Shown: piece by piece, positions 30,140 through 54,596 of the stretch
Layout: the number at the start of each line of letters is the position of its first letter
Numbering within the stretch: position 1 is the first letter of the stretch
Source: Adhaeribacter radiodurans
GTDB lineage: Bacteria; Bacteroidota; Bacteroidia; Cytophagales; Hymenobacteraceae
Reading direction: 5' to 3'
NCBI RefSeq assembly: GCF_014075995.1
Contig: NZ_CP055153.1
Location: 5,704,001-5,768,000 of the forward strand
DNA: 64,000 bases
Notes under the pieces: model-generated
Databases searched by the model: none
Told to the model about the DNA's origin: nothing
Seen by the model: the letters and a program-made list of their open reading frames with translations, nothing else
Translations under genes and position numbers: made by a program

Positions 30140-30568
30140 TTATTGCATTACTTCCATTTTAGCGCGTACATCCGCCGGAACCGACATTACTTTTCGGGTG
30201 GTATAATTAAAGCATAGCATACCGGTTTTGGCATAAGCAACTGGTTTATTATTTTGGTTGGTTACGTGGTATACTAAATCAAAGCCATATTTACTAAAGT
30301 CGGTGGGCGCTATTTGTACGGTAAGTATATCTCCTAAAAATCCTTCGCCTTTGTATTCTATGGCTACATCGGCCATAATTAAAGCACCACCGCCCAACTC
30401 TAACTCTGAATAACCCAATGATTGCAGGTATTGCAAGCGGGCGTCGTGCAGAATACTTAATAAAGTATCGTTCCCTAAATGTCCGCCGTAGTTAATGTCC
30501 GAGATTCGAACTTTTATTTCGGTACGAAAAGAATATGTAGTGGGTAAATCAATTTTAATTCTAGCCAT
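30140..30568 (-). CDS. Acyl-CoA thioesterase, hotdog fold
   Basis: This 142-residue protein of the 4HBT family hydrolyses acyl-CoA thioesters. ATG 30566-30568 (MARIKIDLPTTY) is preferred; the longer in-frame start at 30589 would run into the heptamer array. The catalytic region reads RISDINYGGHLGNDTLL, where an Asp-Ile-Asn-Tyr-Gly-Gly-His pattern matches the family active site, and the central helix follows (LSILHDARLQYL). The substrate chain is unknown. The divergent gap to mnmD carries an inverted repeat pair. Confidence 0.87.
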   Translation of the reverse strand: MARIKIDLPTTYSFRTEIKVRISDINYGGHLGNDTLLSILHDARLQYLQSLGYSELELGGGALIMADVAIEYKGEGFLGDILTVQIAPTDFSKYGFDLVYHVTNQNNKPVAYAKTGMLCFNYTTRKVMSVPADVRAKMEVMQ

Positions 30569-30573
30569 GAAGT

Positions 30574-30608
30574 CAGTTGCAAGTTGCAACTTGCAAGTTA
30601 CAGGTTAT
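30574..30608. repeat. Heptamer array, left arm of an inverted pair
   Basis: Five 7-bp units of the type CAGTTGC, AAGTTGC, AACTTGC, AAGTTAC, AGGTTAT begin 5 bases upstream of the thioesterase ATG. Bases 30591-30606 are perfectly inverted at 30736-30751 (16 bp). The 130 bases between hold no gene. Confidence 0.7.
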
Positions 30609-30735
30609 CTATTACAAGCTCCAAGTTGTACAGCTATAACAATAAAGCTTATGACACTTACTTTATTTATTGTACCTGAATATTTTTTAATTGTGAAAGA
30701 CCAATCAACTATCGGATTTTTCAATATTATATTTC

Positions 30736-30770
30736 AACCTGTAACTTGCAACCTATAACCTCCAACTAAC
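30736..30770. repeat. Heptamer array, right arm, ending at mnmD start
   Basis: Five 7-bp units (AACCTGT, AACTTGC, AACCTAT, AACCTCC, AACTAAC) end three bases before the mnmD ATG at 30774. This arm mirrors the array at 30574-30608. Confidence 0.7.
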
Positions 30771-30773
30771 TTC

Positions 30774-31442
30774 ATGAAAACCGAAATTAGGCCAACCAAA
30801 GATGGGTCTGTTACTTTATACGTACCGGAACTAGATGAGCATTATCATTCTATAAATGGTGCTTTACAGGAGTCGATGCACGTGTTTATCCGGGCTGGAT
30901 TAGAATATGTGTGGCACAACCAATTAGAAGCTACGGTTCTGGAAATAGGTTTTGGTACGGGCTTAAATGCGCTACTTACTTTAGAACAAACGTTACTAAA
31001 TGCGCAAAAGGTTTTTTACCATACCCTGGAAAAATATCCTTTATTACCAACTCTAATAGACCAAATGCATTTTGAGCAATTTATCTTTAATAAGCAGTTA
31101 CTACATTTTTTGCCAACTTTACACACTACTCCCTGGAACGAACCGGTAACTATTACTCCCGCGTTTACCCTTTTAAAATCAGAAACCGATCTGCGCACTT
31201 ACCTTTTGCCGCCTGATTATTATAGTGTTATTTATTTCGATGCTTTTGCTCCCGAAAAGCAACCCGAACTTTGGACAGATGCTATTTTCGAAAAGCTGTA
31301 TACTGCCTTACAACCAAATGGTTGTTTAGTAAGTTATTGCGCCAAGGGTAGTTTTAAACGCAGCTTAAAAGCCGCCGGATTTATCATAGAAGCGTTACCT
31401 GGGCCCGCCGGAAAACGGGAAATGACCCGGGCTTTTAAATAA
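30774..31442 (+). CDS. mnmD: tRNA (5-aminomethyl-2-thiouridine)-methyltransferase MnmD
   Basis: This SAM-dependent methylase completes mnm5s2U34 in tRNA wobble positions. The 222 residues match the stand-alone MnmD form, equal to the N-terminal half of MnmC; the FAD oxidase half is absent. Motifs are TVLEIGFGTGLNALL (SAM site), VIYFDAFAPEKQPELW (family signature) and the C-terminal GPAGKREMTRA. It starts at ATG 30774 immediately after the repeat array. Confidence 0.93.
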   Translation: MKTEIRPTKDGSVTLYVPELDEHYHSINGALQESMHVFIRAGLEYVWHNQLEATVLEIGFGTGLNALLTLEQTLLNAQKVFYHTLEKYPLLPTLIDQMHFEQFIFNKQLLHFLPTLHTTPWNEPVTITPAFTLLKSETDLRTYLLPPDYYSVIYFDAFAPEKQPELWTDAIFEKLYTALQPNGCLVSYCAKGSFKRSLKAAGFIIEALPGPAGKREMTRAFK

Positions 31443-32637: not shown

Positions 32638-33099
32638 ATGAAAAAGACTTATTTAAGTATTCTAGCAGCAGCTTTTGTAGCAACAACCACTTTTACTTCT
32701 TGCTCAAGCACCAATACAGATACTGGTACTAGCGGTACTGGTACTTCTACTACCGATGATGCCACCGGAACTACCTCTGGTACAACTAGTGGCACAACTA
32801 GCGGTACTACCGATGGCAGTACTACTGGAACAACTGCTGGCGGTACAACCAGCGGAACCACTTCAGGAACAACTACCAGCGGTACTACTGATGGCACTAC
32901 TACTTCTGGTACCACTAGTGGCACTACAACCGGTACAACTAGCGGAACCACTTCAGGAACAACTGACGGTGGAACAACAGCTGGTACTACTTCCGGTACA
33001 ACCAGCGGAACTACTGCTGGTGGAACAACAGCTGGTACAACAACCGGCGGTACTACTGCTGGCGGCACCACTGCTGGTGGTTCAACAACCGGCAATTAA
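32638..33099 (+). CDS. Thr/Gly/Ser-repeat lipoprotein
   Basis: This 153-residue protein has a signal peptide with lipobox FTSC, then about 130 residues made only of Thr, Gly, Ser and a few Ala and Asp in TSGT/TAGG units. The repeated codons leave long open frames in two other frames, which are artefacts. It is probably a flexible outer-membrane-anchored linker or surface coat protein. The repeat is in multiples of 3 bases, so copy-number changes would alter length without breaking the frame. Terminator at 33128. Confidence 0.75.
   Translation: MKKTYLSILAAAFVATTTFTSCSSTNTDTGTSGTGTSTTDDATGTTSGTTSGTTSGTTDGSTTGTTAGGTTSGTTSGTTTSGTTDGTTTSGTTSGTTTGTTSGTTSGTTDGGTTAGTTSGTTSGTTAGGTTAGTTTGGTTAGGTTAGGSTTGN
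32755..33095 (+). repeat. Low-complexity tandem coding repeat
   Basis: This is an internally repetitive segment of the lipoprotein gene, built from ACT/ACA/ACC (Thr), GGT/GGA (Gly) and AGC/TCT (Ser) codons in short units of 6 to 24 bases. The varied synonymous codons mean the DNA repeats less exactly than the protein does. Confidence 0.8.
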
Positions 33100-41265: not shown

Positions 41266-41274
41266 ATTTAAAAC

Positions 41275-41316
41275 TAGATGTTAGATGCTAGATATTGGAC
41301 GTTAGATATTAGAATT
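41275..41316. repeat. Heptamer array upstream of the adaptor gene
   Basis: Six perfect 7-bp steps (TAGATGT, TAGATGC, TAGATAT, TGGACGT, TAGATAT, TAGAATT) begin 9 bases upstream of the adaptor ATG. Confidence 0.7.
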
Positions 41317-41401: not shown

Positions 41402-41499
41402 TTTACCAAGTTCCATTTACCAACCTGCTTTTTAACCTGTCAACTTTCCAACCTTTCAATCAAAAAATCTGTGGACTATGGACCATAGACCATGGACTA
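41402..41499. repeat. Compound repeat array between permease 2 and adaptor
   Basis: Three kinds of array follow one another: TTTACCA/AGTTCCA/TTTACCA at 41402-41422 (7-bp period), AACCTGTC/AACTTTCC/AACCTTTC at 41434-41457 (8-bp period), and TGGACTA/TGGACCA/TAGACCA/TGGACTA at 41472-41499 (7-bp period). The last ends three bases before the permease stop codon. A terminator-like hairpin on the plus strand lies at about 41365-41399. Confidence 0.65.
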
Positions 41500-41502
41500 A
41501 AA

Positions 41503-42756
41503 CTATTCATCGCGTAGGGCTTCTACCGGATTTACCCGGGCGGCTTTGGCAGCGGGTATTAAGCCGGCCAACGCTCCGGAAAAAACCAAGAGCAACACTG
41601 CCGTAAGGGCAATGGGCACGTTTACCTCGGGGTTAGAAAAATAACCGGCATCCACGTTCAGGCGCGTCATCAGGTAATCAATTAAGGCAATAATACCCGT
41701 ACCGGCAATCAGTCCTAACCAACCCGCTACTCCGGTTATAACAATAGATTCCTGAATAATTAAACTGATGATGGACCAGGGCGTAGCTCCCAATGATTTA
41801 CGAATGCCAATTTCCTTGGTGCGTTCTTTTACCACAATCAGCATAATGTTACCCACCCCAATAATACCGGCGATAATAGTGCCGATGCTCACAATCCAGC
41901 TAAAGGTGGCTATACCGGTAAATAACCCTTGTATTTCTTGAAACTCTTTTTCGATATTGGCAGACCCAAAAGCCTTTAAATCATCAGGAGCCACGGAATG
42001 CCGTTTCATGAGCATTTGTTTTACTTTATCTTCTACCAAGGCAGCGGGTACGCCCGGTTTGGGTGTCATGGCAAAATAGCCCACTTTATTTACTTTATTA
42101 TAGGTTTGCTGCAAGGTAGTTAGCGGCAGAAAAATCGTTTGGGCATCCTGGGTTAACTCTTCGCCTTTACCTACTCCCCGGAAAATACCTACTATTTGAA
42201 AATAAATACCTTTAACGCGAATATACTGGCCAATCGGGTCTTCGTCTTTCTGAAAAAGTACTTCTATCACCCGTTCTCCTACCACTGCAATTTTGCGCTT
42301 TTCCTGCATGTCGATGTTGTTTAAAAAGCGGCCTTTTAAAATGTGCATCGGTTTTACTTCCCGGAAATCAGGGTTGTCGCCACGTACCGTAAAAGAGGAG
42401 CTTTTGCTTAAGCGGTTTACCGTGAACGTACCATCCAGATCGTTACTCGGCGCAATTACCGCTACCTCCGGTACTTCGGCCATTACGGCAGCAATATCGT
42501 CGTTTGTAAGTTGAATAAACCGGCCAGCTTTTAAACCTTTATAAGGCACCGCAGTCCGTTGCGTCCAGACGAAAACTGTATTTTTGGCAATATTAAAATC
42601 TTTGATCACCCCATTCTCCAAACCTTTACCCGCACCCAGCAACACAATCAGCATAAATATTCCCCAGAACACGCCAAAAGCCGTTAAACCCGTACGCAGC
42701 TTATGTTTGCGCACGGTAGCATAAATCTCCGCCCATTTGTCTATATCAATTACCAT
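41503..42756 (-). CDS. ABC exporter permease 2 (MacB_PCD/FtsX type)
   Basis: This 417-residue permease has an N-terminal membrane helix (TAFGVFWGIFMLIVLLGAGKG), a periplasmic MacB-like domain of about 210 residues, and three C-terminal helices (IGTIIAGIIGVGNIMLIVV, GVAGWLGLIAGTGIIALI, ALTAVLLLVFSGALAGLIP) with the FtsX signature VKERTKEIGIRKSLGATPW. It is a paralogue of permease 1 at 43224; the two probably heterodimerise. Its ATG (42754-42756) is part of the first unit of a heptamer array, so the first residues MVIDIDKW are partly repeat-derived. Confidence 0.92.
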   Translation of the reverse strand: MVIDIDKWAEIYATVRKHKLRTGLTAFGVFWGIFMLIVLLGAGKGLENGVIKDFNIAKNTVFVWTQRTAVPYKGLKAGRFIQLTNDDIAAVMAEVPEVAVIAPSNDLDGTFTVNRLSKSSSFTVRGDNPDFREVKPMHILKGRFLNNIDMQEKRKIAVVGERVIEVLFQKDEDPIGQYIRVKGIYFQIVGIFRGVGKGEELTQDAQTIFLPLTTLQQTYNKVNKVGYFAMTPKPGVPAALVEDKVKQMLMKRHSVAPDDLKAFGSANIEKEFQEIQGLFTGIATFSWIVSIGTIIAGIIGVGNIMLIVVKERTKEIGIRKSLGATPWSIISLIIQESIVITGVAGWLGLIAGTGIIALIDYLMTRLNVDAGYFSNPEVNVPIALTAVLLLVFSGALAGLIPAAKAARVNPVEALRDE

Positions 42757-42779
42757 TTACCAAGTACCATTTACCAGTT
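42752..42779. repeat. Heptamer array overlapping the permease 2 start codon
   Basis: Four 7-bp units (ACCATTT, ACCAAGT, ACCATTT, ACCAGTT) span the ATG of permease 2 and the gap to the four-helix-bundle gene. It mirrors the array at 43188-43222 on the other side of that gene. Confidence 0.7.
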
Positions 42780-42791
42780 ATTGTTGTACAT

Positions 42792-43157
42792 TTAGTTTTT
42801 ATCAATGCGCATTTTCTTGAGAGTGGCAAAAAGCATTTTACTTAATTCTTCCGCATCTTGGTAGATACTTATAAATAATTTCTCATCTAAAAAGGAAGTG
42901 TCCTTAAGTAAGTTTAACCAGTATTTGGTTTCCAAACATTCTTTATAAGCAATAGATAGCTTAGCTGAAAAATCAGCATCAGATATAGCTCCGTTTGCCT
43001 CTGCTATATTTGCGCCAATAGAAGTCCCACTCCTTAAAAGCTGTTTAGATAATATATTTTCCTTTTTTTCTTTATTCAAGTATTGATAAGCGTTTACTAT
43101 TCTAATGGCAAATGCATATGCTTTATCAAAAAGTACATTCTGTTTCCCACCTATCAT
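42792..43157 (-). CDS. Four-helix-bundle protein, 23S-rRNA-intervening-sequence (S23) family
   Basis: This 121-residue all-helical protein carries the family core KQLLRSGTSIGANIAEAN followed by DFSAKLSIAYKECLETKYWL. The family was first known from intervening sequences of 23S rRNA genes, and related proteins (bAvd) accompany diversity-generating retroelements; the stand-alone form has no settled function. Here it sits between two ABC permease genes on the same strand and is flanked by inverted heptamer arrays. A paralogue in the same configuration lies at 47094. No rRNA gene or reverse transcriptase is near. Confidence 0.9.
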   Translation of the reverse strand: MIGGKQNVLFDKAYAFAIRIVNAYQYLNKEKKENILSKQLLRSGTSIGANIAEANGAISDADFSAKLSIAYKECLETKYWLNLLKDTSFLDEKLFISIYQDAEELSKMLFATLKKMRIDKN

Positions 43158-43187: not shown

Positions 43188-43222
43188 ACTTGGTAATTGA
43201 TAAATGGTAAATGGTAAATGTA
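43188..43222. repeat. Heptamer array between four-helix-bundle gene and permease 1
   Basis: Units ACTTGGT, AATTGAT, AAATGGT, AAATGGT and AAATGTA end one base before the stop codon of permease 1 (43224-43226). Its units are the inverse of those at 42752-42779, so the pair brackets the four-helix-bundle gene. Confidence 0.7.
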
Positions 43223-44505: not shown

Positions 44506-44590
44506 TGGTTAGGTAATTATTTGCTGAATAGTTAAGCATTTGAATGGTTCTTTAGTATCTAGTTCTGTAGAGTAGTATAATTTTACTAAA

Positions 44591-44639
44591 ATTGGTAAAT
44601 GCTAACTGGTAATGGGTAATGGGTAATTGGTACCTGTTA
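44591..44639. repeat. Heptamer array encoding the C-terminal tail of the ABC ATPase
   Basis: Seven 7-bp units (ATTGGTA, AATGCTA, ACTGGTA, ATGGGTA, ATGGGTA, ATTGGTA, CCTGTTA) run across the ATPase stop codon at 44602-44604 and about 12 codons into the coding sequence. Confidence 0.7.
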
Positions 44640-45652: not shown

Positions 45653-47056
45653 TTAAATGTGGATTGGCCGGTTTTCTGTGGCTGCCAAGCAAGCTTCTTT
45701 CATGGCTTCGGTGTACGTTGGGTGCGCGTGGCTCATACGAGCTATATCTTCAGCCGAGGCCCGGAATTCCATCGCTACTACGGCTTCGGCAATTAAATCC
45801 GCAATCCGGGGACCAATCATGTGGACGCCCAAAATTTCGTCGGTTTCTTTATCCGCCAGTACTTTCACGAAACCATCGGTGTCCATAGATGCTTTGGCCC
45901 GACCAGACGCTTTAAACGGAAAAGAACCTGATTTATAAGCGCGGCCTTGTTCTTTTAATTGTTCTTCGGTGAAACCTACTCCAGCTACTTCCGGCCAGGT
46001 ATACACGACGCCGGGAATCAGGTTATAATTAATGTGCGGCTTTTGCCCTACAAGCTGTTCAGCCACTAAAACACCTTCTTCTTCGGCTTTATGGGCCAGC
46101 ATCGCCCCCCGAATAACGTCGCCGATGGCGTAAATACCTGGTACATTGGTGCGTAAATGATCATCCACAGCAATCATGCCGCGCTCGCCCATCTGCACAC
46201 CAGCATTTTCTAAACCTAGACCTTCAGTATAAGGTTTGCGGCCAATAGATACCAGACAGTAATCCCCTTCAAAAGTTACAGTTTCACCTTTCGGATTTTG
46301 GGCAGTTACTGTTACGCCTTCGCCGGTGTTGGTAGCGCCCGTTACTTTGTGCTGAAAGTAAAATTCAAAGCCTAAGGTTTTCTTTAAAATACGCTGTAGT
46401 TCTTTGCCTAATGCTTTATCCATGGTCGGAATAATGCTATCCAGAAACTCGACAACTGTGATTTTAGCGCCCAACCGGGCATAAACCGAACCTAATTCCA
46501 GACCAATTACGCCGCCGCCGATAATAACCATGTGCTTGGGTACTTCTTTCAGTTCCAATGCTTCCGTGGAGGTAATAATCCGTTGCTTATCCACTGGAAT
46601 AAAAGGCAACACTGTTGGTTTAGAACCCGTGGCTATAATAGTATTGGTGGTTTCAATTTCCTGAGCCGTACCATCTTGCGCGGTAATCTTAATCCGGTTT
46701 TTATCTACAAATGAACCCAGACCAAAATACGTATCGATCTTGTTTTTTTTCATCAGATAAGTAATACCATCGTTGTTTGATTTTACTACTTCTCCTTTGC
46801 GGTTGATCATTTGCTCCAGATTAACCTGTAGGTTATCCAATTCAATGCCGTGCGTTTTAAAGGTATGCGCCGCGTTGTGGTAATGCTCCGAAGAATCGAG
46901 CAAGGCTTTAGAGGGAATACAACCTACGTTTAAGCAAGTACCACCCAGTACATTATATTTTTCAATGATGGCGGTTTTCAGGCCAACCTGGGCACACCGG
47001 ATGGCCGCCACATAGCCGCCCGGGCCAGAACCAATCACTACAACATCGTATTTCAT
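45653..47056 (-). CDS. lpd: Dihydrolipoyl dehydrogenase (E3)
   Basis: This flavoprotein reoxidises the lipoyl groups of the 2-oxoglutarate dehydrogenase E2 and passes electrons to NAD+. The 467-residue protein has the FAD site VIGSGPGGYVAAIRC, the redox disulfide GGTCLNVGCIPSK (Cys41, Cys46), the NAD site IIGGGVIGLELGSVYARLG and the C-terminal HAHPTYTEAMKEA with the catalytic His. It is the third enzyme gene of the operon. Its upstream gap is entirely heptamer repeat, so translation starts directly after the array. Confidence 0.96.
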   Translation of the reverse strand: MKYDVVVIGSGPGGYVAAIRCAQVGLKTAIIEKYNVLGGTCLNVGCIPSKALLDSSEHYHNAAHTFKTHGIELDNLQVNLEQMINRKGEVVKSNNDGITYLMKKNKIDTYFGLGSFVDKNRIKITAQDGTAQEIETTNTIIATGSKPTVLPFIPVDKQRIITSTEALELKEVPKHMVIIGGGVIGLELGSVYARLGAKITVVEFLDSIIPTMDKALGKELQRILKKTLGFEFYFQHKVTGATNTGEGVTVTAQNPKGETVTFEGDYCLVSIGRKPYTEGLGLENAGVQMGERGMIAVDDHLRTNVPGIYAIGDVIRGAMLAHKAEEEGVLVAEQLVGQKPHINYNLIPGVVYTWPEVAGVGFTEEQLKEQGRAYKSGSFPFKASGRAKASMDTDGFVKVLADKETDEILGVHMIGPRIADLIAEAVVAMEFRASAEDIARMSHAHPTYTEAMKEACLAATENRPIHI

Positions 47057-47066
47057 TTTATATAAT

Positions 47067-47094
47067 TAGAAATTATGAATTAGAAATTAGAAAT
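47067..47094. repeat. Heptamer array, left inverted repeat of the four-helix-bundle element
   Basis: Units TAGAAAT, TATGAAT, TAGAAAT and TAGAAAT lie at 7-bp spacing between the lpd start and the stop codon of the small gene. Bases 47071-47096, which include that stop codon, are perfectly inverted at 47466-47491 (26 bp). Confidence 0.85.
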
Positions 47095-47459
47095 TAAGCA
47101 TTCGCCTTCATCGAGATTAGAATGCTATTAATAATTCGTCTGATTTCTAGCCCATCTTCATGAATGGATTCAAACGCTTTTTCAGAAAGATATTGACTGT
47201 CATTGAGCAGCCGTAACCAGTAAAATGTTTCTCTGGCTTCTTTTGCCGCAATATTTAATTTATGAACGAAATCAGCTTTAGAACTTGCAGCGATTGCTTC
47301 TTCCACATTGGCTCCAATAGAAGTTCCGCTTCTAAGCAATTGCTTAGCCAAAACAAACTCTTTTTGCTCCTGGGTTAAATATTTATAAAGCTTGATAATC
47401 CGAAGGGCGAAGGCATAACTCTTATCACAAATTACATTCTCCTTCTTGCCTTCTGCCAC
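47094..47459 (-). CDS. Four-helix-bundle protein, S23 family, bracketed by inverted repeats
   Basis: This 121-residue paralogue of the protein at 42792 shares the core KQLLRSGTSIGAN and the same length. It begins with GTG at 47457-47459, since the only upstream ATG is in the repeat and meets an in-frame TAG at once. The gene lies between sucB and lpd, and the flanking arrays touch its start codon and include its stop codon. Function is unknown. The bracketed structure looks like a compact mobile or inserted unit, though it carries no transposase. Confidence 0.9.
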   Translation of the reverse strand: MAEGKKENVICDKSYAFALRIIKLYKYLTQEQKEFVLAKQLLRSGTSIGANVEEAIAASSKADFVHKLNIAAKEARETFYWLRLLNDSQYLSEKAFESIHEDGLEIRRIINSILISMKANA

Positions 47460-47460
47460 A

Positions 47461-47492
47461 ATTTCTAATTTCTAATTTCTAATTCATAATTT
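47461..47492. repeat. Heptamer array, right inverted repeat of the four-helix-bundle element
   Basis: Units ATTTCTA (three times), ATTCATA and ATTTTAT run from the start codon of the small gene almost to the sucB stop codon (47495). It is the inverse of the array at 47067-47096. Confidence 0.85.
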
Positions 47493-47494
47493 TA

Positions 47495-49213
47495 TTACAC
47501 GCCCAACAATAAACGCATTGGGTCTTCGAGCAGCTCTTTCACGCGAACTAAGAAGCTAACTGATTCACGGCCGTCGATGATGCGGTGATCGTACGATAAC
47601 GCTACGTACATCATCGGGCGAATAACTACCTGGTCATTGATCGCAATTGGGCGATTAACAATGTTGTGCATACCTAAGATGGCCGATTGCGGTGCGTTAA
47701 TGATAGGCGTAGACATCATGGAGCCAAATACGCCCCCGTTGGTAATGGTAAAGGTTCCACCAGTCATTTCCTCAATCGAAATTTTATTTTCGCGCGCTTT
47801 CTTAGCTAAACGAACAACTTCTTTTTCTACGCCATCCAACGATAAGCTTTCGGCATTACGGATAACCGGCACTACCAAACCTTTAGGAGCAGAAACGGCT
47901 ATAGATATATCACAGAAATCGTTGAAAACAATTTCATTTTCTTCGAGTTGGGCGTTTACAGCTGGCCATTCTTGTAAGGCTACCGTACAAGCTTTCACGA
48001 AGAACGACATAAAGCCCAGGTTCACTTCAAATTTTTCTTTGAACTTGTCTTTGTACTTTGCCCGGATGTCCATAATCGGCTTCATATCTACTTCGTTAAA
48101 AGTAGTCAGCATGGCCGTTTCGTTTTTAACCGCTACTAACCGACGGGCTACCGTTTTCCGTAAGCTCGACATCCGTTCACGACGCTGATTACGGTTACCC
48201 GAAGTGGCCGGCGCAGAAGCTGGTTGCGAAGTTGCTGGCTTTGAAGCAGGAGCAACAGGCTGTGCTTGTGGCGCCGCAGCAGGTTTAGCCTGCGCACCTA
48301 CGGCATCTTCTTTCGTAATGCGGCCATCCCGGCCAGAGCCAACCACATCCGTTGCATTAATACCTTTTTCAGCTAATATTTTACCAGCAGCCGGCGAAGG
48401 AGTGCCACTAGCATAGGTTTGAGCTCCCCCGTTAGAGGCCGCAGCGGCTTGCGCGGACTGGGATGCAGGTGCGCTGGCCGGAGCAGCTGGAGCACCGGAA
48501 ACAGCACCTGTAGTACTTTCGATGGTACAAATAACGGAACCAACCGGTACAGTTTCACCTTCCGGGGCTACAATGTGTAAAGTACCGGCAACTTCGGCGG
48601 GTAATTCAAAAGTAGCTTTGTCGGATTCCAATTCGCAAATAACTTCGTCGAGAGCAACTACTTCACCATCTTTTTTAAGCCATTTAGAAATAGTTACTTC
48701 AGTAATAGATTCGCCTACGGTAGGAATTTTAATTTCTTTGGAACCGCCAGCGGCTGTAGCTGCGGCATTGCCTACCTGCGGGTTATTATTAGTTGACACT
48801 GGATTGTATGAGCTGTCGGCTACCGGAGCTTTTTCGGCGGCAGGTGTACTCTGCGGATCCGTAATGGTTTTGGCTTCGGCGGGTTGTGGTTCTGCTACTG
48901 CACCGCCGTAACCAGAGCCACTGCCTTTACTTTCGGCGCTGGCCCCACCGGTGGTAGTACCCGTACCGTTGCTGCTACCGCCCTCCTCGATGCTACATAG
49001 TACCGTACCAATCGGAATGGTTTCGCCTTCGGCTACTATAATGCGCAATATACCGGCTCCTTCAGCTGGTAGCTCAAAGGTGGCTTTATCCGACTCCAGT
49101 TCACAAATAACTTCGTCCATTGCTACTTGGTCGCCGTCTTTTTTTAGCCATTTGGCAATAGTTACTTCGGTTATCGACTCGCCCACCACGGGCACTTTTA
49201 CTTCCAATGACAT
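47495..49213 (-). CDS. sucB: 2-oxoglutarate dehydrogenase E2, dihydrolipoyl succinyltransferase
   Basis: This 572-residue enzyme transfers the succinyl group to CoA. It has two lipoyl domains, each with the [12 protein letters not shown] loop (the first lipoyl Lys is residue 43, the second near 205), two Ala/Pro/Gly-rich linkers, an E3-binding domain ([23 protein letters not shown]-type) and the catalytic core ending with the HxxxDG motif in [11 protein letters not shown] single lipoyl domain is usual for this E2, so two is a variant. The neighbours sucA and lpd support the 2-oxoglutarate rather than the pyruvate complex. Confidence 0.94.
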
Positions 49214-49221
49214 ATATCTTT

Positions 49222-49368
49222 GAGTTATGAGTTAAAAGTTAAGAGTTATGAGTTAAAAGTATACAATTAGAAATAAGGTTTATAAGATAAATTTAAAAAT
49301 TTAAACCTACTTACTTTTTACCTCTTTCCAACTCTTAACTTTTAACTTATAACTCTTAACTAAATACT
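49222..49368. repeat. Empty inverted-repeat element between sucA and sucB
   Basis: The left array has GAGTTAT, GAGTTAA and AAGTTAA units (49222-49260). The right array has CTTAACT, TTTAACT and TATAACT units (49327-49368). Bases 49222-49247 and 49330-49355 are inverted repeats of 26 bp with one mismatch. An inner 7-bp inverted pair AGGTTTA/TAAACCT lies at 49276-49308. There is no gene inside. It starts 9 bases upstream of the sucB ATG and ends 2 bases before the sucA stop. Confidence 0.8.
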
Positions 49369-54251: not shown

Positions 54252-54596
54252 AATTAAATTACCAGAAAAATTTTCGTTTTAAGTGTAAGCATTACGCTTC
54301 TGCAAGGCTATACTTGTTATTTTTCTTGCCCTGTATGCTGGTAGGTTTTACTTTTTTTACATTGACAGCAGGCTAGCTGGTTGTGCTATTCCGCTAGTAT
54401 AGTTTATAGCTGATACCCAACCGCAATACTTTGAGCACAATAATACTTTGAGCACAATTCCACTCAGAACCTTTGAATACCCACGTGCGAAACTTTTGCG
54501 GAAGCCTGTCAGTACATAATAGCATTATATTTTATACTTTGGGCAGCTTTTCCGCCATCCAACAGCCGTGCTGGTGAAAGCGTACGTTTATCTTTT
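54252..54596. other. Intergenic region with a tandem duplication
   Basis: A perfect 17-bp tandem duplication, AATACTTTGAGCACAAT, occupies 54425-54441 and 54442-54458. No gene was found. It lies about 140 bases upstream of the PAS kinase gene. Confidence 0.6.

Follow-up and report, generated by a model that had tools for sequence, protein, structure and literature searches.

An S23 gene between inverted heptamer arms in the sucA-sucB-lpd operon of Adhaeribacter radiodurans: a probable link between 23S-rRNA intervening sequences, heptanucleotide repeats and orphan S23 genes

Introduction

IS elements and MITEs, as well as REP-RAYT systems, are bounded by terminal inverted repeats and occur as full and shorter copies with similar ends, and the tandem heptanucleotide repeats of cyanobacteria go by the name of STRR. 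Closest to the element described here are the intervening sequences (IVS) in the 23S rRNA genes of Leptospira and Coxiella. The Coxiella IVS is 428 nt long, ends in a 28-bp terminal stem that is cut by RNase III and has tandem heptamers GACAGAT just ahead of its S23 ORF; its S23 protein is reported as probably not made, the ORF being in decay, and the idea of a mobile element was raised in the same paper and left unresolved (PMC4990558). IVP ORFs have also been described from 16S and 23S insertions of CPR bacteria (PMC11270868).

Repeats with a period of seven have a literature of their own. TAACTGA repeats are found in Beggiatoaceae, Cyanobacteria and Bacteroidetes, where horizontal transfer was suspected with no mechanism evident and S1, Csp or Csr proteins were proposed as binders (PMC4679880), and the same heptamer is mentioned for Thiomargarita (PMC4853749). 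Repeats of GGGAATC/GGGGATT were described from Xanthomonas and Nostoc, heptamer repeats being over-represented in several bacterial genomes (PMC4692102). The sections of these two papers that deal with the repeats treat them alone and name no S23 partner (PMC4679880, PMC4692102). The P6b stem of the Nostoc trnL intron is built of the heptamer classes TDNGATT and NNTGAGT, whose origin is stated as not known (PMC4476775). Finally, a resemblance between S23 and Avd was reported earlier (PMC10053308). Among the papers listed by our searches of the open-access literature, none beyond that on the Coxiella heptamers joins S23 to heptamer arms.

Results

The window, by which we mean the whole stretch of 64,000 nucleotides analysed from Adhaeribacter radiodurans, carries the gene order sucA-sucB-S23-lpd on its minus strand, with sucB (47495-49213) upstream and lpd (45653-47056) downstream of a small S23 (23S_rRNA_IVP) gene at 47094-47459 that starts with GTG and encodes 121 aa. 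Read on the plus strand, the left arm of the element (47064-47096, 3' in the coding sense) is a period-7 array of AATTAGA and its right arm (47460-47492, 5' in the coding sense) the inverted copy, an array of AATTTCT; each holds 4.7 copies of the 7-base unit, and the inverted copying extends to an irregular unit. The perfect part is an inverted repeat of 27 nt (100% identity, 47070-47096 and 47466-47492), contained in a wider one of 36 nt at 86% (47060-47095 and 47460-47495). The S23 stop codon lies within the left arm, the right array starts directly at the start codon, with the perfect repeat 6 bases off the GTG, and the stop codon of sucB is 2 bases from the element. The first-pass annotation had described a perfect 26-bp inverted repeat around the gene, inside this operon and with this placement of stop and start codons; the description is accurate, except that the repeat is 27 bp, with the extra base on its outer side. 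It had also noted the absence of a transposase, and S23 is the only ORF of at least 80 aa in the 423-bp unit. A toxin-antitoxin pair was rejected, the unit being without a second gene, and so was a chance repeat: when the whole window was resampled 20 times under a Markov-1 model, the best inverted repeat (spacer 21-700) scored 16.5 against 27 for the real one.

In size (about 430 bp), in a terminal inverted repeat of about 28 bp with an S23 ORF inside, in the lack of a transposase and in sporadic distribution the element is like the 23S rRNA IVS of Leptospira and Coxiella. Unlike them, it lies between protein genes of an operon and not in an rRNA loop, and, unlike that of Coxiella, its S23 gene is intact and subject to purifying selection; RNase III excision, as reported for the Coxiella IVS, would in the window element be a prediction.

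The window protein matches PF05635 (E 8.8e-29, 100.3 bits, cut-off 33.8) and TIGR02436 (E 1.4e-31, 109 bits, cut-off 24). The four-helix bundle expected from the sequence at first reading is also what AlphaFold2 predicts, with a mean pLDDT of 95.7, and the nearest structures agree with it: 2RLD, of Bacteroides thetaiotaomicron BT_0352, is the best PDB match (E 3.4e-10, 56-58% identity over five chains) and 2GSC matches as well (E 3.7e-4), both deposited without known function. Avd (4DWL), a four-helix bundle of similar fold from diversity-generating retroelements (DGRs), aligns to the model with TM scores of 0.71/0.80, but only with E 0.12 and at rank 20, after unrelated helical bundles, and the bAvd Pfam match of the protein is below its cut-off. 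Neither a reverse transcriptase nor template/variable repeats, as a DGR would have, were recognised by eye among the ORFs of 42-52 kb; the sole RVT_1 match of the genome (G000) is on another contig (G000:C1).

A second S23 gene of the window, likewise on the minus strand and of 121 aa, lies between two ABC-permease genes (42792-43157) and has the same layout with another heptamer: a left arm of the TTTACCA type at 42747-42776 and its inverted copy, TGGTAAA, at 43191-43220 (plus strand). The genome holds five S23 genes in all, two of the five matches containing a stop. Inverted arms flank all five, every time with a different sequence, and period 7 is clear in four but not in the fifth (L001). 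In L001 the stop of the S23 match (1501-1830 of the locus, G000:C2:546364-546693) falls inside a long internal inverted duplication, GTGCGATTCC...GGAATCGCAC; in L005 (G000:C2:3688718-3689005), whose match also has an internal stop, the GTTGCAG arms still match well. The window contains further repeats. Unpaired period-7 arrays, for which our detector found no inverted partner, occur near permease/ABC genes at 41274-41313, 41469-41497 and 44590-44632; a 17-mer is perfectly duplicated in tandem at 54425-54458 (AATACTTTGAGCACAAT); and degenerate tandem repeats of 12-42 bases with GGTACAAC-like units at 32779-33093 probably belong to a repetitive protein region.

S23 genes are present in 7 of 8 genomes of the genus, 173 of 200 of the family and 45 of 61 of the phylum, in 0-7 copies within the genus, and 37 plasmid records have a match. 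A single S23 query protein gave no match in 50,697 phage records. For the flank survey we took 30 genus loci out of 35 S23 matches, 10 of the plasmids, loci of the family and the phylum, and the best 80 of at least 586 loci from a scan that took a single genome for each species over several phyla, including CPR bacteria; the family, phylum and scan loci are the best-scoring ones and not a random draw. Arms were called from the best ungapped inverted match between the 230-base flanks (score of at least 12) and periodicity from the lag-7 self-match of each flank. Inverted arms were found at 141 of 174 S23 genes, two of the 80 scan loci being dropped from this count for flanks shorter than 150 bases: 27/30 in the genus, 27/27 in the family, 20/29 in the phylum, 10/10 on plasmids and 57/78 in the scan. 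Period-7 arrays stand on both sides of 105 of the 174; period 8 is a minor form (13/174), and periods 5, 6, 9 and 10 sum to 3. Nine of nine cyanobacterial plasmid loci and a Gemmatimonadota locus (octamers) are among those with arms above threshold.

At the same threshold the flanks match in direct orientation at only 28 of the 174 genes, and the controls score close to zero: ParE-toxin genes of the same family have inverted arms in 1/30 cases and two-sided period 7 in 0/30, lpd loci in 1/16 and 0/16, and random intervals of S23 size from the genus, from which S23 elements had not been removed, in 12/600 and 3/600. A control on ORFs, also unpurged (14/233 inverted, 8/233 period 7), was given no weight. 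In the scan alone inverted arms reach the threshold at 57 of 80 loci, versus 17 of 400 mispaired flanks and 14 of 80 in direct orientation; an earlier mispaired-flank control was discarded because it contained high-scoring pairs, which are probably orthologs lying on opposite strands. Of a second set of 174 loci, changed a little from the first (L095 and L102 excluded, all 80 scan loci included, flanks below 100 bases not judged), 140 have arms, 131 have both arms and an intact protein, and 15 have neither arms nor arrays. Some redundancy should be noted: L114, from an Adhaeribacter MAG, is the same locus as L006 of G006, with identical protein and arms and the same neighbours, and the protein of L176 is identical to that of L084.

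The arm units vary among elements, octamers replacing heptamers in some, and by eye the ends of different elements share no common sequence. In the 5' arm G outnumbers C in 107 of 140 elements, C outnumbers G in 19, and the two are equal in 14. No known RNA family, rRNA included, was detected at the 20 scan loci tested, mostly of other phyla. The repeat-bracketed layout is thus general for S23 genes across phyla, and the earlier suggestion that it would tie them to repeat biology is borne out: inverted heptamer flanks are the rule at other S23 genes too. That most of the S23 relatives examined sit between mirror-image heptamer blocks suggests that S23 is the partner of such repeats.

Arm and protein also vary together. 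Mean arm similarity is about 0.22 for S23 pairs below 50% identity, 0.26 at 50-60%, 0.37 at 60-70%, 0.55 at 70-80% and 0.83 above 80%, and the correlation persists when only elements that have no flanking protein in common are compared (Mantel r 0.172, 0/1000 permutations). A deltaproteobacterial (L146) and a cyanobacterial (L116) S23, 71% identical, have common TCAGCTATCAGC arms at unrelated sites; similar arms were seen in only 4 of 9 pairs that are 70-80% identical and lack a shared context. We regard the partnership of S23 and its arms as strongly supported. All 34 pairs with at least 80% protein identity share their flanking genes and are therefore vertical orthologs, so that within this set no recent transposition was seen.

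Heptamer hairpins also occur without S23. In the window one such hairpin fills the sucA-sucB gap (49222-49355, arms 49222-49247 and 49330-49355, spacer 82) and another, of the GTTGCAG type, lies at 30566-30776 (arms 30566-30606 and 30736-30776, spacer 129), with arms resembling those of the S23 element L005. Our detector, which misses the degenerate arms of L001, found 14 inverted heptamer/octamer pairs in 504 kb of the genome, three of them bracketing S23 and three weak and A/T-rich. Among 19 S23-less heptamer hairpins of four genus genomes (spacer up to 250) 13 match S23 arms of the same genome with a score of at least 12, one of the 13 being an S23 element's own arm and another only just reaching that score. 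On average the hairpins score 15.4 within the own genome, 9.3 with other genus genomes and 7.4 with a family sample. When G007 is compared by eye with G000, G003 and G004, both arms of the sucA-sucB hairpin differ together. The presence of S23 does not predict the number of such hairpins: G170, which has no S23, has 4 pairs in 40 kb, whereas none was found in four further genomes without S23 and at most one in each of five genomes that carry it. The 40 kb covered in G121, in G136 and in G000 contain no inverted heptamer pair.

The gene is not at the same place in all relatives. Within the genus, four of the eight genomes have an S23 element at sucB-lpd, with AATTAGA arms in G000 and G007 and AGTTAAG arms in G003 and G004 (in G004 the gene is in two fragments); the empty sites sought in relatives are the other four, where the gap is about 107-111 bases. 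In the empty gap of G005, the sucB stop is directly followed by AATTATGAGTTAGAAA, which comes close to the two outermost units of the arm in G000 (0/2000 shuffles); the likeness is reached in 17/2000 shuffles for G006, 216/2000 for G001 and 843/2000 for G002. It may be that target sequence was copied into both arms of the element, or that G005 and G006 (gaps L035 and L036) bear the scar of a lost one. The permease-permease gap is occupied by S23 elements in four genus genomes, G000 and G003 with unlike heptamers and G004 and G001 with octamers.

Cyanobacterial plasmids offer three further filled/empty pairs. A Nostoc plasmid (C052) has the order TraM-S23-hypothetical, and S23 is absent at this site in two C057 plasmids; in Nostoc ATCC 53789 a GGGAACA hairpin without S23 lies there, and its left junction is that of C052. 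Other Nostoc plasmids (L271, L272) have other inserts in the TraM-downstream gap at about 1410-1750, that of L271 with TTCAAAAT-type inverted repeats, and the gap looks like an insertion hot spot. Calothrix brevissima has integrase-S23-hypothetical, while three plasmids have both genes 3 bases apart, about 11 bases being replaced. Nostoc edaphicum has nrdB-S23-nrdA, with a Calothrix counterpart that lacks S23. No target-site duplication was visible by eye at these three pairs. On plasmids of Pseudanabaena galeata (L106) and Anabaena sp. 90 (L107) an S23 element stands between cas6 and cas4 in CRISPR-cas operons. The CRISPR-association figure of a 2023 terascale CRISPR survey includes 23S rRNA IVP (PMC10910872), which may thus be there as an inserted element rather than as a Cas component.

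The mobile or self-inserting unit of the first-pass annotation survives in part: sites without the element exist, and mobility is supported by them but not by recent copies, as all 34 close pairs share their flanking genes; neither a target-site duplication nor a mechanism of transposition was found.

S23 is under purifying selection, with dN/dS of 0.02-0.12 in 9 of 11 chosen ortholog pairs (the other two being saturated). In the same 11 pairs, gaps not counted, the arms are 545/589 identical (92.5%) and the rest of the flanks 2189/2597 (84.3%); between G000 and G007 the arm bases are 54/54 identical, against a difference of 41% at synonymous sites. When each context cluster is represented by one element (103 clusters, linked only within the 131 elements that have arms and an intact protein; 75 with clear neighbours; strands called from open frames), S23 runs in the direction of both neighbours in 61 of 75, against both in 4 and mixed in 10 (61 vs 4, p 4e-14); in annotated plasmid records it is antisense to both in 3 of 9 cases. 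RNA folding against shuffles gave z -4.6 for the window element, with a long stem predicted, and z -7.4 for the sucA-sucB hairpin. Mismatches between the arms show no excess of G-U (137, versus 146 A-C), which speaks against selection for RNA pairing alone, and in three ortholog groups an arm resembles its partner in the same element no more than it does the arms of other elements.

Discussion

The reading that we favour, at a probability of roughly 70%, is that the unit between sucB and lpd is an IVS-like hairpin insertion whose S23 gene is read from the host transcript and encodes the cognate protein of its heptamer or octamer arms. S23 would then be made from the transcript of the host operon, and the arms would pair in this transcript or in single-stranded DNA. 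RNase III might cut the stem, by analogy with what is published for the 23S-rRNA IVS, and so part the S23 message from the flanking cistrons. The protein, a putatively ring-forming four-helix bundle with an Avd-like fold, would recognise its own arm unit, in which case the S23-less hairpins would be its non-autonomous dependants. New copies would arise rarely, by a host-dependent and transposase-free route that leaves no target-site duplication, in short gaps between co-directional genes or in loops of structured RNAs, and would from then on be inherited vertically.

A wider form of the idea, towards which we lean slightly, makes S23 proteins the dedicated partners of a previously unrecognised, cross-phylum group of hairpin elements that lack a transposase and end in tandem heptamers, the S23 of each lineage recognising its own unit. 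The group would include the 23S-rRNA IVS, the cyanobacterial and Bacteroidota heptanucleotide repeats, the stem of heptamers in Nostoc trnL and the many orphan 'four helix bundle protein' genes. S23 elements share with the tandem heptanucleotide repeats the 7-bp period, the mostly intergenic position and hosts among Cyanobacteria and Bacteroidetes, and they have heptamers standing head to tail in intergenic DNA just as the cyanobacterial repeats do. In Nostoc trnL P6b the hairpin sides are complementary heptamers as well, and one class repeatedly replaces another in place; unlike the elements described here, it lies within a group I intron, and the part of the source that describes it mentions no S23 gene (PMC4476775). 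Terminal inverted repeats, and S23-bearing and shorter S23-less copies with similar ends, recall IS/MITE and REP-RAYT systems. A classical IS or MITE was nevertheless rejected, there being no transposase and no target-site duplication seen, and the heptamer ends vary from element to element.

It is also conceivable, if unlikely, that S23 has long been an ordinary gene of the host with an RNA-binding role in the cell, its hairpins being host elements for regulation or mRNA processing and nothing being mobile. Strong purifying selection, the vertical inheritance of all 34 close pairs at the same site across genera, the orientation of S23 with its neighbours and the slower evolution of the arms compared with the other flank sequence all fit such a gene. 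They have to be set against the filled and empty sites at sucB-lpd and on cyanobacterial plasmids, the unlike elements with different arms in one permease gap of four genus genomes, the copy number of 0-7 in one genus, insertion into gene pairs as unrelated as those next to an integrase, nrdB-nrdA and cas6-cas4, and some S23 pairs of different phyla that share arms at unrelated sites.

Spread by reverse transcription of the hairpin transcript, with S23 acting like Avd and a DGR or group II intron providing the reverse transcriptase in trans, we likewise consider improbable. The likeness of fold to Avd, earlier reported (PMC10053308) and with the weak scores given above, and insertion mostly in the sense of transcription speak for this route; the symmetry of the arm mismatches speaks against it, as does the lack of an RVT_1 match in G003, with 6 S23 copies, and in G005, with 3, although old copies could outlive loss of the enzyme. 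That the arms are independent slippage repeats of AT-rich gaps, with S23 merely preferring repeat-rich gaps, is very improbable: some heptamer arrays do have neither S23 nor a detected partner, and heptamer repeats are over-represented in several bacterial genomes (PMC4692102), but the arms are placed inverted in 141 of 174 cases versus 28 in direct orientation, inverted heptamer pairs are missing from 40 kb each of three S23-bearing genomes, and the window arms are inverted copies down to the irregular unit.

The insertion element with its cognate protein remains the best reading, and it brings orphan S23 genes together with heptanucleotide repeats and the intervening sequences of 23S rRNA. 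S23 genes are common and their structures have been solved since 2006, yet they are still without an assigned function. Their association with the arms ties these orphan genes to little-studied bacterial heptamer repeats, the spread of which is unexplained (PMC4679880, PMC4692102), and offers the protein a concrete candidate substrate, its own arms. It suggests that the rRNA IVS is a special case of an element that is usually found between genes for proteins; a paired stem at such a place would cut the message or divide it into parts.
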